Source: an uncultured Lentisphaerota bacterium (GTDB taxonomy: Bacteria; Verrucomicrobiota; Kiritimatiellia; CAIQIC01). From it: a stretch of DNA of 51,545 nt. How positions within the stretch are numbered: the first letter of the stretch is position 1; each line of letters opens with the position of its first letter. The position numbers were made by a program, and so were the translations under genes. Shown here one piece after another: positions 88-50,809 of this stretch. A model generated the notes under the pieces. The model was not told the DNA's origin and ran no database searches. It was given only the letters and a program-made list of their open reading frames with translations. Where the stretch lies: positions 1-51,545 of the forward strand of contig CAISWQ010000047.1 of assembly GCA_903889245.1 (NCBI GenBank). Reading direction: 5' to 3'.

Positions 88-160
88 CCTTGGAAAAGGC
101 GGAGGGTGGTTTTTCCAAGGCTTGGAAAATTTCACGGCCGGTTTTCCAAGCCTTGGAAAA
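88..160. repeat. Phased TTCCA-N5-TGGAA dyad cluster, two full sites plus a decayed one
   Basis: Full dyads are centred at 120 and 151, 31 bp apart. A right half-site (TGGAAAA, 91-97) would be centred at 88, 32 bp upstream and in register, so it looks like a decayed third copy. The cluster ends directly against the ROK kinase stop codon at 161-163. Nothing else is recognisable in 1-87. Confidence 0.9.
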
Positions 161-5475: not shown

Positions 5476-6924
5476 ATGAATACAACGCAAAGTCGTCGGT
5501 CCTTTCTCAAATCCACGGTCGTTGGCGCGGGTGCGTTGGTGGCGGCGCGCGTGTTCGGTGCGCCCGCGATCCTGCCGAACCGCTCGCCCAGTTCACAACT
5601 GCGCATCGCCGTCATCGGCTGCGGCGGACGTGGCACCAGTTCGCATGTCCCCGCCGCCGCGGCCGAGCGCCTTGTGGCCCTTGTGGATCCCGACGACAAG
5701 GGCCTCGCCAAGGCGCTCAAGAAGGCCGGCTCGCAAAACAAAATCCGCACGTTCTCCGATTACCGGAAACTCTTCGATGCGATGGGCAAGGAACTCGACG
5801 CGGTCTTCATCGCCACGCCGAACTATCATCATGCGCTACCCGCGCTCATGGCAATGCAGCGCGGTATCGGCGTCTACGTCGAAAAGCCGCTGACCTATAC
5901 CATCGGCGAGGCGCGCGAGCTCGCGGCCGCCGCGCAGAAGTACAAGGTCGCGACGCAGATGGGTAATCAGGGCCACTCCAGCGAACACTATCGCCGCCTA
6001 TGCGAATACATCTGGGCCGGCGCCATCGGCAACGTCACCGAGGTTCACCACTGGTGCAACCGCTCCAACGGCGGCGTCGGCCCGCGTCCGCCGCCCGCAC
6101 CTGTGCCAGATGGCTTGCACTGGGATGAGTGGATCGGCCCGGCGCCCTACCGCGACTATCACCCCGACTCGGTCAAGGTCGAGCATGGCAAGACCAAGAT
6201 CGTCCCCTTGCATCCGCATGAATGGCACAACTGGCACGACTTCGGCAACGGCTCGCTCGGCAACATGGGCTGCCACATCATGGATGGCGCCTTCTGGGCG
6301 CTGAAGGTCGAGCATCCGACCAGCATCGTGGTCGAGGAAATGGCCGGTGGCAGCGCCGAGCGTTATCCCATCGGCACGCGCATCCGCTGGGACGTGCCCG
6401 CCCGTGGCGCGATGCCGCCCGTGAAGATTTATTGGTGGGACGGCAAGCGCACCGGCATCAAGAACGCTGGATCCGATGCCGAGGACACCGCCGACAGCGT
6501 CTCCAAAACCGCGCGCAACCGCCCGCCGCTCGTCGAGAAACTGGAGAAGGAATACGGCCGCGACTTCGGCGGCAACGGCACCTTCTACATCGGCGACAAG
6601 GGCCTCATGTACACCGGTTGCTATGGCGAAGGCGTGCGTATCATCCCCGAGGACAAGCACAAGGCCTTCCCCATGCCGCCCGCAAGCATCCCGCGCATCA
6701 AGGGCAGCCACTTCGGCGACTTTATCCGCGCGTGCAAGGGTGGCCCGCCTGCCTGCTCCGCCTTCGACTACTCCGCGCGCCTGACCGAGTTCGCGCTGCT
6801 CGGCTGCCTGGCCATCAAGGCCGGCCCCGGCAAGAAAATCGAGTGGGACGGCCAGCAATGCACCAATCTGCCGGAGATCAACCGCTTCCTTAACCGCCAG
6901 AATCGCGCCGGCTGGCAGGCCTGA
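5476..6924 (+). CDS. TAT-exported Gfo/Idh/MocA-family oxidoreductase
   Basis: NAD(P)-dependent sugar oxidoreductase-like protein of 482 aa. The N-terminus has a twin-arginine signal (SRRSFLK, hydrophobic VVGAGALVAA), so it is probably exported folded with its cofactor. A Rossmann fold begins at IAVIGCGGRG, and EKPLTY is the conserved catalytic-lysine motif of the family. PVC-group genomes carry many such paralogues near carbohydrate genes. ATG 5476 is chosen over GTG 5473 because AAGG lies 8 nt upstream. It is followed by a structured non-coding element. Confidence 0.9.
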   Translation: MNTTQSRRSFLKSTVVGAGALVAARVFGAPAILPNRSPSSQLRIAVIGCGGRGTSSHVPAAAAERLVALVDPDDKGLAKALKKAGSQNKIRTFSDYRKLFDAMGKELDAVFIATPNYHHALPALMAMQRGIGVYVEKPLTYTIGEARELAAAAQKYKVATQMGNQGHSSEHYRRLCEYIWAGAIGNVTEVHHWCNRSNGGVGPRPPPAPVPDGLHWDEWIGPAPYRDYHPDSVKVEHGKTKIVPLHPHEWHNWHDFGNGSLGNMGCHIMDGAFWALKVEHPTSIVVEEMAGGSAERYPIGTRIRWDVPARGAMPPVKIYWWDGKRTGIKNAGSDAEDTADSVSKTARNRPPLVEKLEKEYGRDFGGNGTFYIGDKGLMYTGCYGEGVRIIPEDKHKAFPMPPASIPRIKGSHFGDFIRACKGGPPACSAFDYSARLTEFALLGCLAIKAGPGKKIEWDGQQCTNLPEINRFLNRQNRAGWQA

Positions 6925-6954: not shown

Positions 6955-7100
6955 GTTGAACCGACGCTTCGCGTCGGTTCAACGGGGGCGGCTTACCAGC
7001 ACCTTGTTGGCCGCGAAGCGCGGCACAACAAGGCTGCTGCACCGGATGCCGCCCTCCCAAACAGGAGTTTGGTCGGTCGGCAACCGGTGAGCCGCCCCCG
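6955..7100. ncRNA. Candidate multi-armed structured RNA or folded DNA element
   Basis: A 13-bp hairpin (6955-6967 with 6971-6983) is followed by a closed multi-arm fold. Helix P1 pairs GGGGGCGGCT (6984-6993) with AGCCGCCCCC (7090-7099). Inside it, arm P2 (7002-7033) has 14 pairs, one bulged A and a 3-nt loop. Arm P3 (7040-7089) stacks CACCGG/CCGGTG, GCCG/CGGC and CCAAAC/GTTTGG around an AGGA loop, with internal loops between. The helices are symmetric, so the strand is unknown. No known RNA family was recognised; a mobile palindromic element is the alternative. Confidence 0.55.
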
Positions 7101-7133
7101 TTGGGTGTACCGTTTCAGCAGTTCGCTTCCTGA

Positions 7134-7177
7134 AATAAAAACACCAAGACCGGAATGTGGATACATTCCGGTCTTGG
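7134..7177 (-). terminator. Rho-independent terminator of rpsT
   Basis: A perfect 14-bp stem (7144-7157 with 7164-7177) has a 6-nt loop. On the minus strand it is followed by a T-rich tract (TGTTTTTATTT). It lies 20 bp beyond the rpsT stop codon. Confidence 0.85.
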
Positions 7178-7197
7178 CATCTGGACGGCAGGCCGCG

Positions 7198-7467
7198 TTA
7201 TTTGGCGGCGAGGCCGCGGACGCGGTTGGCCGCGCGGGTCTTGCGGCGCTGCGCGGTGTTCTTGGTGATGATGCCGCGCTTGGCGAGCTTGTCGAGCATC
7301 GAGCAGTAGGCTTTGTATTCGGCCGTGCCCTGCTCCGCGTTCTTCTGTTCCACCGCGCCGAACAGCTTTGCGCGCTGGGTCTTCAAACCGGTCTTCGCGG
7401 ACACGTTCCGGGCATGACGCTTGACCGCCTGCCGCGCTCGTTTGGCTGCACCTTCAATGTTTGGCAT
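7198..7467 (-). CDS. rpsT: Ribosomal protein S20 (bS20)
   Basis: Small-subunit ribosomal protein of 89 aa that binds 16S rRNA, with the usual length and start (MPNIEGAAKRARQ). It is rich in Lys, Arg and Ala, and helical. The TKNTAQRRKTR segment near the C-terminus corresponds to the conserved S20 tail. AGGAG lies 7 nt before the ATG. It is a single-gene transcript: its own terminator follows, and an AraC gene lies 80 bp upstream on the same strand. Confidence 0.96.
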   Translation of the reverse strand: MPNIEGAAKRARQAVKRHARNVSAKTGLKTQRAKLFGAVEQKNAEQGTAEYKAYCSMLDKLAKRGIITKNTAQRRKTRAANRVRGLAAK

Positions 7468-11382: not shown

Positions 11383-11528
11383 TTTTTCCAGGGATTGGAA
11401 AGGGAAACCGGAATTTTTCCAGGGATTGGAAAAATCAGGCCCAACTTTTTCCAAGCCTTGGAAAAGGCAACAGGAAATTTTCCAAGCCTTGGAAAAATAC
11501 CGGGCGGAAATTTCCAAGGCTTGGAAAG
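11383..11528. repeat. Phased dyad cluster, five sites
   Basis: Dyads are centred at 11393, 11424, 11456, 11487 and 11519, with intervals of 31, 32, 31 and 32 bp. This is the largest cluster in the window. It lies between the symporter and the fucosidase, about 175 bp before the fucosidase start. Confidence 0.95.
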
Positions 11529-11545
11529 TGAGCGGTTGACCGGGC

Positions 11546-13499: not shown

Positions 13500-13801
13500 T
13501 TGCGGCGGCAGGCATGCCGCCGCTCCCGGTCAGCCGCCTTCTCCCTCCGGTGGGCGGGAGCTACAGCTCCCGCGTGTTCCGGCGAAAGCCGCAGCCCAAA
13601 CCCATCGGGAGGGCGAGCGTACTCGCGAGCCGCTGGTTGAGTTGGGTGGGGTGGGCCGCACTCTCACGAGTGCGGCTACAGTGTTCGTCCGTAGCCGCGT
13701 TCGTCAGAACGCGGCCAGCCACTGCCGAACCCTGCCAACATCTGCGACTGCGCCGCACTCTTACGAGCGCGGCTACAAACAACCGAACCGCGAAGCGTTT
13801 T
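13500..13801. repeat. Palindrome island upstream of the PQQ-propeller gene
   Basis: This stretch is a mosaic of hairpins: GCGGCGGCA.../...TGCCGCCGC (13502-13523), a single CGGGAGCT-AC-AGCTCCCG arm (13550-13574), and the second copy of the 80-bp element (13601-13680). It continues with GCCGCGTTC-GTCA-GAACGCGGC (13694-13715) and a GCCGCACTC-TTAC-GAGCGCGGC hairpin (13752-13777). No gene is seen here, although one frame happens to be open through it. Confidence 0.7.
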
Positions 13802-16470: not shown

Positions 16471-16673
16471 TATTCTGTGCCGACCTCGCGACCTCAAGGA
16501 ATTCGTCCACGGAATACACCCATCTCATGGGTGGCAAACCCCGGCAGTGTACCGCTAGAAAGCGCGGCAGCGAAAATTTTCGGACGCCGAGCCGCCAGTA
16601 GCCAAACGGAAGGTTCAGTACCAGCACACCCGCCGCCACCACTATTCAAAAGGGCTTGCGGATATTTCAGGAT

Positions 16674-16746
16674 TTGTGGGCGGGAGCTACAGCTCCCGCG
16701 GAAATCAGCATCGGAAAACGCGGGAGCTGTAGCTCCCGCCCACAAG
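16674..16746. repeat. Dimeric hairpin element, variant GGGAGCTACAGCTCCC
   Basis: The left arm 16674-16700 (TTGTGGGCGGGAGCTACAGC onward) and right arm 16719-16746 are inverted copies. Each can also fold on itself. The outer ends GTGGGCGGG/CCCGCCCAC are shared with 13799-13876 and 49264-49342. Confidence 0.9.
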
Positions 16747-16788
16747 CAGGAAGATCGCGGGGCTGGAAAGCCACGCCCAAGTCAGAAA

Positions 16789-16830
16789 CGAACATCGAAG
16801 ATCGAACACCGAGCATCCAACATCGAAGGG
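16789..16830. repeat. Degenerate GAACATCGAAG word repeat
   Basis: Five imperfect words (GAACATC, GAAGATC, GAACACC, GAGCATC, CAACATC) run in tandem. It is the same family as 9486-9540. Confidence 0.7.
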
Positions 16831-42002: not shown

Positions 42003-42052
42003 TTTTCCAAGGCTTGGAAAATTATGGCGATGTTTTTCCAAGCCTTGGAAAC
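42003..42052. repeat. Phased dyad pair upstream of the family B polymerase gene
   Basis: Sites are centred at 42012 and 42043, 31 bp apart, between divergent genes. The right half of the second site provides the TTGGAA of the polymerase promoter candidate. Confidence 0.94.
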
Positions 42053-49189: not shown

Positions 49190-49263
49190 GGCGTTACACA
49201 ACACCAAAGCAGCGGCACTGGCAAGTGCGAAACCTGAAGGACCGAGCACTGGGCTGTGTGGAT

Positions 49264-49342
49264 TTGTGGGCGGGAGCTACAGCTCCCGCGTTGGGGCGAC
49301 AGATTGTGTCAGCTTCGCGGGAGCTGTAGCCCCCGCCCACAA
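49264..49342. repeat. Dimeric hairpin element, variant GGGAGCTACAGCTCCC
   Basis: The left arm 49264-49290 and right arm 49317-49342 match 16674-16746 except for one base near the end (GTAGCCCCC for GTAGCTCCC). The centre between the arms is different. Confidence 0.88.
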
Positions 49343-49348
49343 GCGTTC

Positions 49349-50809
49349 TTACGTCCCTTGCTGCCACTGGCCGACGCGCGCGGCGAGGTCGGCGGCCTGG
49401 AGAATATCACCGATGACAGCAAAGCCGTTGGCGGCGGGCAGTTCGCGGGCGCGCTCCGGCGTCAGCGCACCGATGGCGGCCACCGGCGCGGGCGCGAGCG
49501 CCGCGAGCCGACCGAACCCCGCGGCGCCCAGCGCCGGGTGCGCCAGCGTCTTCGTCGTGGTGGCGAAGACCGGGCCGATGGCGATGTAGCTTGGCCGCAC
49601 CGCGGCGGCGCATGCCAGCTCGGTGTAATTGTGCGTGCTGATGCCGAGGCGCAGGCCGCCGTGTGCGAGCGCGGCGAGGTCGGCACCGGGCAGGTCTTCC
49701 TGGCCCAGATGCACGCCGTAGGCGCGATGCTTCAGGGCCAATTCCCAGGCGTCGTTGATGAAGAGCCGCGCATTGAAGTGCCGGGCGAGTTCGATGGCGG
49801 CCACGATTTCCTTTTCCAGCGCCGCGCCCGTCAGGTCCTTGGCGCGCAGTTGGATCGTCGTGATGCCGAGTGGCAGCAGTTTCTCCAGCCACGCGGCGCG
49901 ATTTACCAGTGGATAAACGCCGAGCCGCTGCGTGCCGCAGTCGCGGAACTGCGGGCGGTCGCGACCGCCCTCGGAGGTTGCGGTCAGCCAGGGCAGATCG
50001 GATGCGTTGGCTGGCCAGCCCAGATGCGCGGGTGAGCCGCGGCCCTGTCCGATGTCCGCGCCACACCGCAGGCCCTGATTCAGGTACGCTTTGGCAATCA
50101 CGATTGCGTCGGCGAGCGGATGGCCGAGCGCACGCGCCGCGGCGATGGCCGAGGCGAGGGTGCAGCCCGTGCCGTGTGTGTGGTGGACCTGCTGGCGCGG
50201 ACTGGTCAGCCAGAACGACTGCCGGCCGTCGAAAAAATAATCCTGTGCGATTTCGCCGCCGCCGTGTCCACCCTTGATCAGCACGGCGCGCGCGCCACGC
50301 CGCAAAAGTTCGGCAGCGGCGGCCGGGACCTCTTCCAAACCTTGGAAATTCCGGCCGAGCAGTTTTCCAAGCTCTGGAAAATTCGGCGTGATGAGATCGG
50401 CACGCGGCAGCAGCCTGTCCATCATCAGCCGCCAACCCTGCTCATCGAGCAACGCCGCGCCGCTGGTCGCAGCCAGTACGGGATCGCAGACGACGAACGC
50501 GTCGGACCACTGCAGAAAATCGGCGACCACCTTGACCTGCGCCGCCCCGCCCAGCATGCCGAGCTTGATGGCGGCCGGCGGCAGGTCCTCGGCCAGCCGG
50601 TCAATCTGCGCGCGGAGCAGTTCCGGTGTGACCGGTTCGACGGCGAAGACGCCGGTGGTGTTCTGCACCGTCAGCGCACTGACGACCGTACAGGCGTGAA
50701 CGCCGAGCCCGTGCATGGTCTTGAGGTCGGCCTGTAAACCCGCGCCGCCGCCCGGGTCGCTGCCGGCGATGGTCCAGCAGATGGGGTGATGTCCTTGGTC
50801 AGTGGTCAT
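49349..50809 (-). CDS. thiDE: Bifunctional HMP-P kinase / thiamine-phosphate synthase (ThiD-ThiE fusion)
   Basis: Cytoplasmic enzyme of 486 aa for thiamine synthesis. ThiD (about residues 1-255) phosphorylates HMP-P: IAGSDPGGGAGLQADLKT, VCDPVLAATSG, TPNFPEL, KGGH and HHTHGTGCTLASA are its motifs. ThiE (about 290-486) joins HMP-PP and the thiazole: TIQLRAKD, FINDAWELA, GVHLGQEDLPG, ISTHN and IGPVFATTTK. The linker includes a palindrome at 49953-49970. A dyad pair lies in frame within the ThiD region. It starts 3 bp after the PabB-PabC fusion, so the two are probably co-transcribed. Confidence 0.95.
   Translation of the reverse strand: MTTDQGHHPICWTIAGSDPGGGAGLQADLKTMHGLGVHACTVVSALTVQNTTGVFAVEPVTPELLRAQIDRLAEDLPPAAIKLGMLGGAAQVKVVADFLQWSDAFVVCDPVLAATSGAALLDEQGWRLMMDRLLPRADLITPNFPELGKLLGRNFQGLEEVPAAAAELLRRGARAVLIKGGHGGGEIAQDYFFDGRQSFWLTSPRQQVHHTHGTGCTLASAIAAARALGHPLADAIVIAKAYLNQGLRCGADIGQGRGSPAHLGWPANASDLPWLTATSEGGRDRPQFRDCGTQRLGVYPLVNRAAWLEKLLPLGITTIQLRAKDLTGAALEKEIVAAIELARHFNARLFINDAWELALKHRAYGVHLGQEDLPGADLAALAHGGLRLGISTHNYTELACAAAVRPSYIAIGPVFATTTKTLAHPALGAAGFGRLAALAPAPVAAIGALTPERARELPAANGFAVIGDILQAADLAARVGQWQQGT
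49953..49970. repeat. Perfect 18-bp palindrome in the thiD-thiE linker
   Basis: GGGCGGTCGCGACCGCCC lies in the interdomain linker, encoding a Gly/Arg-rich stretch. It resembles the other hairpin arms in this genome. Confidence 0.6.
50332..50381. repeat. Phased dyad pair inside the thiD coding region
   Basis: Sites are centred at 50340 and 50372, 32 bp apart. In the reading frame they encode NFPELGK and RNFQGLEE. The first fits the conserved TPNxxE motif of ThiD, so neither site disrupts the protein. Confidence 0.9.

Follow-up and report, generated by a model that had tools for sequence, protein, structure and literature searches.

The element at positions 6956-7100 (plus strand) of a 51,545-nucleotide stretch of DNA from an uncultured Lentisphaerota bacterium, referred to here as the window, is best explained as a gene-less integron cassette of 145 bp that amounts to little more than a recombination site, which a 3-nt loop closes on itself. 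The probability of this reading is estimated at about 0.82. The unit runs from the TT of a left GTT core to the G of a right GTT core, and homologous units in related genomes share these borders. The copy in the window is solitary and lies outside an integron. Comparison with its relatives points to a family of miniature cassettes in Lentisphaerae-type bacteria, apparently undescribed, in which the fold is kept while the sequence changes.

Fold and Genomic Setting of the Element

The element is located between a gene for a Gfo/Idh-type oxidoreductase (plus strand, ending at 6924) and rpsT (minus strand, 7198-7467), which are convergent. A genome search identified one copy in the host genome, ruling out a multicopy repeat. 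The minimum free energy of positions 6955-7100 is -108.9 kcal/mol, compared with a mean of -59.5 ± 4.65 for shuffled sequences (z = -10.6, with 0 of 200 shuffles as good), and the minus strand of the same positions folds with z = -12.2. The element is also the lowest-energy 150-nt window in all 51.5 kb. An earlier note, made from the sequence alone, had described 146 unusually ordered nucleotides containing a 13-bp hairpin followed by multi-branch helices with symmetric internal loops. These features are borne out by the computed fold, in which the folded unit runs slightly past the noted end, to 7106. The impression that the element is neither a tRNA nor a familiar riboswitch agrees with the searches made: a tRNA/tmRNA search of the element found none and no Rfam family reaches its gathering score for it (sub-threshold matches only).

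Several other hairpins were observed. The terminator of rpsT, a strong minus-strand hairpin at 7139-7182, lies between rpsT and the element and is distinct from it. TTTTCCAAGGCTTGGAAAA is a recurrent palindrome whose copies are paired, each pair giving a long hairpin (window 111-160, 42004-42051, and 11402-11541; L045 7365-7439); it represents a separate repeat family that is also present in other parts of the genome. Another palindromic family, GGGCGGGAGCTACAGCTCCCGC, is found at 13501-13650, 16651-16800, and 49251-49400 and accounts for some of the strongest hairpins of the window. In a related genome, the end of a contig (L018 6-137, G059:C463) carries a perfect palindrome of 132 bp that is possibly an assembly artefact.

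Borders and Internal Architecture

Integron cassettes are bounded by GTTRRRY cores and carry an R'' box of the form RYYYAAC, with attC sites of 57-141 bp (PMC3053210). In the attC sites that have been studied, the central spacer is unpaired and the R''-L'' arm bears extrahelical bases (PMC2727003). In the window, two GTTRRRY cores bound the unit, G|TTGAAC at 6955 and G|TTGGGT at 7100. The left core box, GTTGAAC, spans 6955-6961 (plus strand, as are all features below unless stated), where the crossover would fall between 6955 and 6956, and the R' core box, GTTGGGT, spans 7100-7106 and forms the right cassette border. The cassette start folds into a perfect 13-bp hairpin with a 3-nt loop (hairpin 1, 6955-6967/6971-6983), identified from the fold, the inverted repeat, and covariation, which links the start to the R'' box GTTCAAC (6977-6983). 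This box fits RYYYAAC and is the exact reverse complement of 6955-6961, consistent with the integron cassette rule. The complementarity of the start box and the R'' box is 7/7 in the window and, by inspection, 5-7/7 in those other copies whose start is intact.

The fold further defines an outer attC-like site of 130 bp (6977-7106) with a branched, three-way terminal structure. The 5' strand of its outer stem (6984-6993) pairs with the 3' strand (7090-7099), which lies inside AGCCGCCCCCGTTGG, and covariation is seen at outer positions 3 and 5-9. The outer stem is fully paired, possessing neither an unpaired spacer nor an extrahelical base, and the 130-bp site may consequently be a poor integrase substrate. 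Because these features are lacking and the short forms found in relatives (49-55 bp) are shorter than the 57-141 bp given for attCs, we do not class the outer site as a canonical attC; the unit is classified as a cassette on the basis of its borders, the complementarity between its boxes, and the arrays in which its relatives occur.

A nested site of 84 bp (7023-7106) is more canonical. It has an R'' box of GCACAAC and an R' box of GTTGGGT, an unpaired spacer of 2/3 nt, and one extrahelical base. Its R' box fits the consensus and its R'' box is one base off RYYYAAC, while the equivalent site in a full copy from a second Lentisphaerae metagenome-assembled genome (MAG; G059:C462) has R'' and R' boxes that are complementary at 7/7 positions. 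Arm 2 of the fold (7040-7089), with its symmetric internal loops, is the terminal structure of the nested attC and is conserved in the G059 and G002 copies. Arm 1 (6997-7039) consists of inverted GTTG..CAAC boxes around a GCGAAGCGC mini-hairpin, and the same arm is present in G059:C2, G121:C240, and G299:C66. Comparison with 7023-7106, together with sequence inspection, also reveals an inverted attC core without a terminal structure on the minus strand of 6977-7012 (GGCCAAC...GTTGAAC). The three-way fold results from the pairing of two inverted attC sites, 7023-7106 and minus-strand 7012-6977. A reading of 6977-7106 as a plain canonical attC was given up in view of the nested site and the short forms.

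Copies in Related Genomes and Covariation

The class was searched (346 genomes) by DNA similarity and then with covariance models built from the copies. DNA similarity identified the full copy in G059:C462 (86% over 152 nt, E 2.7e-45), a short form in G059:C461, and a 3' half in G002:C216. The covariance models added four short forms in G059 (C433, C3, C123, and C199), which brings the short forms in that genome to five, as well as diverged long and short forms in G059:C2, G060, G121, G299, and G342. Across the copies the long form measures 145-154 bp and the short form 49-55 bp, with the same borders, and the full architecture is kept at 55-64% identity in G059:C2, G121:C240, and G299:C66. 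Several weak matches to the short model (E 0.001-0.01) proved on inspection to be unrelated hairpins, and such matches were left out of the counts. Beyond the class, the model search found no carrier among genomes sampled phylum-wide, and when 84,980 species genomes were scanned with a degenerate pattern, nothing was returned beyond the two Lentisphaerae MAGs already known. Regarding a phage or plasmid source, viral contigs gave no exact pattern match and there was no plasmid match.

The covariance search proposed in the earlier note indicates that the pairing is conserved. In the forward copies, the GTTG core of hairpin 1 is nearly fixed and the adjacent pairs covary (AT/CG; AT/GC/CG), and the outer stem behaves likewise. 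In the model-aligned set, both sides have changed in 9 of 19 pairs and 95% of cells are paired, values that none of 500 shuffles equals and that slides do not approach, in a set whose counts are inflated and lean towards structure as it holds matches on both strands fitted to that structure.

These copies bear on which part of the element would be the working site. It could be the nested 84-bp attC (7023-7106) only, with 6955-7022 representing the debris of an inverted, collapsed second attC, a version that is compatible with the gene-less cassette reading and was assessed apart from it. The more canonical features of the nested site, the 7/7 R boxes of its equivalent in G059:C462, and the minus-strand attC core without a terminal structure at 7012-6977 are all consistent with this version. 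However, short forms that retain hairpin 1 and the outer stem but lack the nested site are found at several places in arrays, and the covariation of hairpin 1 and the outer stem argues against debris, which would not covary. The restriction to the nested site is accordingly regarded as possible but rather unlikely.

Integron Context of the Element and Its Copies

The genome that carries the window has an integron of its own. Contig C16 encodes an intact integron integrase ORF of 456 aa that scores 356.8 bits against a family cut-off of 265. An attI-like site precedes this ORF by about 200 bp, and 1.3 kb further on there is an attC (TGCCAACAATCGGCTGG...CAGCCGCCCCCGTTGGCG). An integron platform, with intI above the cut-off and an adjacent site assigned as attI by position and repetition, is therefore present in the host. 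Exact matches to AGCCGCCCCCGTTGG in the 5.26-Mb genome number two, one at window position 7090 and the other in the right arm of the C16 attC.

In the relatives, the element in G059:C462 and the short form in C461 start exactly at the GTT of the attI-like motif AGTTCGTTCAATAATACTGTT. The same motif precedes other first genes in G001-G004 and is the one found upstream of the intact C16 integrase ORF, with a similar placement in G005; its position and repetition identify it as a putative attI. The short forms in G059:C433 and C3 begin at the R' of classical attCs that belong to the preceding gene cassettes; in each case the R'' box of the attC is complementary to the sequence with which that gene cassette begins (GTTAGGCCGAC/GTCGGCCTAAC in C3). 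Four copies therefore stand directly after attI-like sites (C461, C462) or gene-cassette attCs (C433, C3), and G121:C240 apparently lies in an array too. Of 10 other copies scanned, 8 extend far enough on the right to be judged, and in 6 of them an ORF of 122 aa or more opens with ATG no further than 16 nt from the right GTT. In arrays the element keeps one orientation relative to the downstream gene. Toxin-antitoxin genes are common integron cargo. The G002:C216 copy is adjoined by mazEF and the G059:C461 copy by a RelE/YafQ-like gene, the latter a weak match below curated cut-offs. At the window locus, neither an attI nor a second attC was found adjoining the element, which weighs against the cassette reading, as do the attI-like sites described next, the full pairing of the outer stem, the one-base deviation of the nested R'' box, and the small size of the short forms.

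Not every attI-like site stands near an integrase gene. Sites that lack such a neighbour, among them sites in relatives, were observed at L046 9632 (G000:C44), L049 1513, L053 about 1700, L055 9440, and L056 10150, which suggests dispersal or decay of attI sites or of entire platforms; in some of them the upstream region is conserved and there is an inverted repeat of the GCATAAAGACAACTTC type. A textbook 71-bp attC with R boxes matching at 7/7 positions and with no integrase nearby (L056 10516-10586, G004:C52) follows a small gene and an attI-like site. In G060:C153, a broken integron integrase gene adjoins a long-form element on the opposite strand (L120 640-873).

The strong palindromes of the element, the absence of attC spacer and extrahelical bases from its outer site, and the GTT at both ends, which can be read as a 3-bp target duplication, would also be expected of a non-autonomous palindrome of REP or MITE type that depends on another transposase with a preference for integron GTT sites. 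Such an element is improbable here, however, as the unit ends without inverted terminal repeats, its start box complements an internal R'' box in the manner predicted by the cassette rule, its copy number is low, its right arm is common to the attC beside the genome's own intI, and its orientation relative to the downstream gene is single in arrays. The earlier note had offered a palindromic mobile element among three options, and this option was right in kind, with an integron cassette as the best explanation; the other two, a small RNA and a processing or autoregulatory site, found no support.

A structured RNA or regulatory element (sRNA, terminator, or mRNA-stability hairpin) at the Gfo/Idh 3' end or acting on rpsT would suit the very stable RNA fold, the location between convergent genes, and the conserved pairing, but is highly improbable given that no promoter-like site and no T-run terminator were found on the element's strand, rpsT has its own terminator, the neighbours of rpsT vary in relatives, and other copies sit in cassette arrays beside unrelated genes. 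With respect to processing or autoregulation of rpsT in particular, this gene is on the opposite strand with its terminator interposed, and in the relatives where rpsT was found the genes downstream of it differ from those of the window and the element is absent. Nothing was found in favour of a small RNA.

Proposed Movement of the Cassette

If the element is a gene-less cassette, the integrase IntI would act on a single folded strand, presumed by analogy to be the bottom one, and cleave it at the G|TT core to bring about insertion or excision of the unit. The excised 145-nt circle would form a complete, closed dumbbell from either strand, in which the R'' box GTTCAAC and the R' box GTTGAAC pair at 7/7 positions. 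The window copy could have reached the Gfo/Idh-rpsT gap by insertion at a non-integron, attG-like GTT site, or it could be a relic of a lost array. The empty site would then read CCTT-GTTGGGTGTACC and the circular junction CCCCCG-TTGAAC. From the sequence, we infer integrase-driven movement of the element and an insertion event at the window locus. Loot et al. 2024, as cited in PMC11023631, are reported to have described integron cassettes that insert at attG sites of non-classical type.

A broader proposal, to which we assign slightly less than even odds, is that 'attC-only' cassettes (49-55 and 145-154 bp) have spread in the integrons of this class as minimal selfish passengers, each excised circle being a pure dumbbell near the smallest possible mobile cassette. 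Since the outer stem has no unpaired spacer, such cassettes may use the integrase in a way unlike canonical attCs. If these readings are right, integrons carry gene-free passengers that contain little beyond a recombination site and are kept by selection on shape. To our knowledge, these passengers would be smaller than any other integron cassette, and they would offer a natural experiment on the attC features that the integrase requires. The palindrome that runs from the cassette start to R'' would also bear on the open question of cassette origin. Models of attC that were trained on canonical sites may miss fully paired, branched sites of this type.

Comparison with Known Systems

The element resembles REP and REPIN palindromes (PMC3116915, PMC3733652) in being short, palindromic, extragenic, and probably mobile, but it differs from them in its low copy number (single in the genome), its GTT borders, and its integron context. 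CALIN elements with a single attC (IntegronFinder 2.0, PMC9024848) are likewise solitary attC-bearing units away from intI, whereas, in a comparison made by description, the window would hold a complete gene-less cassette with both borders. With canonical attCs the element shares the GTTRRRY/RYYYAAC boxes around a palindrome and a length of 130 or 84 bp, and its outer site differs in being fully paired, with a branched terminal structure that holds a second attC.

Further close counterparts are the gene-less (ORF-less) cassettes known from Vibrionaceae superintegrons (PMC11014356) and an oral metagenome (PMC6557892), which similarly consist of a cassette with an attC and no gene. The Vibrionaceae cassettes that have been studied are 491-666 bp long with attCs of 101-127 bp, and most have promoter activity (PMC11014356). 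In contrast, the window cassette is 145 bp long, is nearly all recombination site, and contains no promoter-like match. No description of small palindromic cassettes of this kind was found in the titles and abstracts searched in the open-access literature. Gene-less cassettes are already known, and it is the small palindromic, nearly attC-only type that appears to be new.
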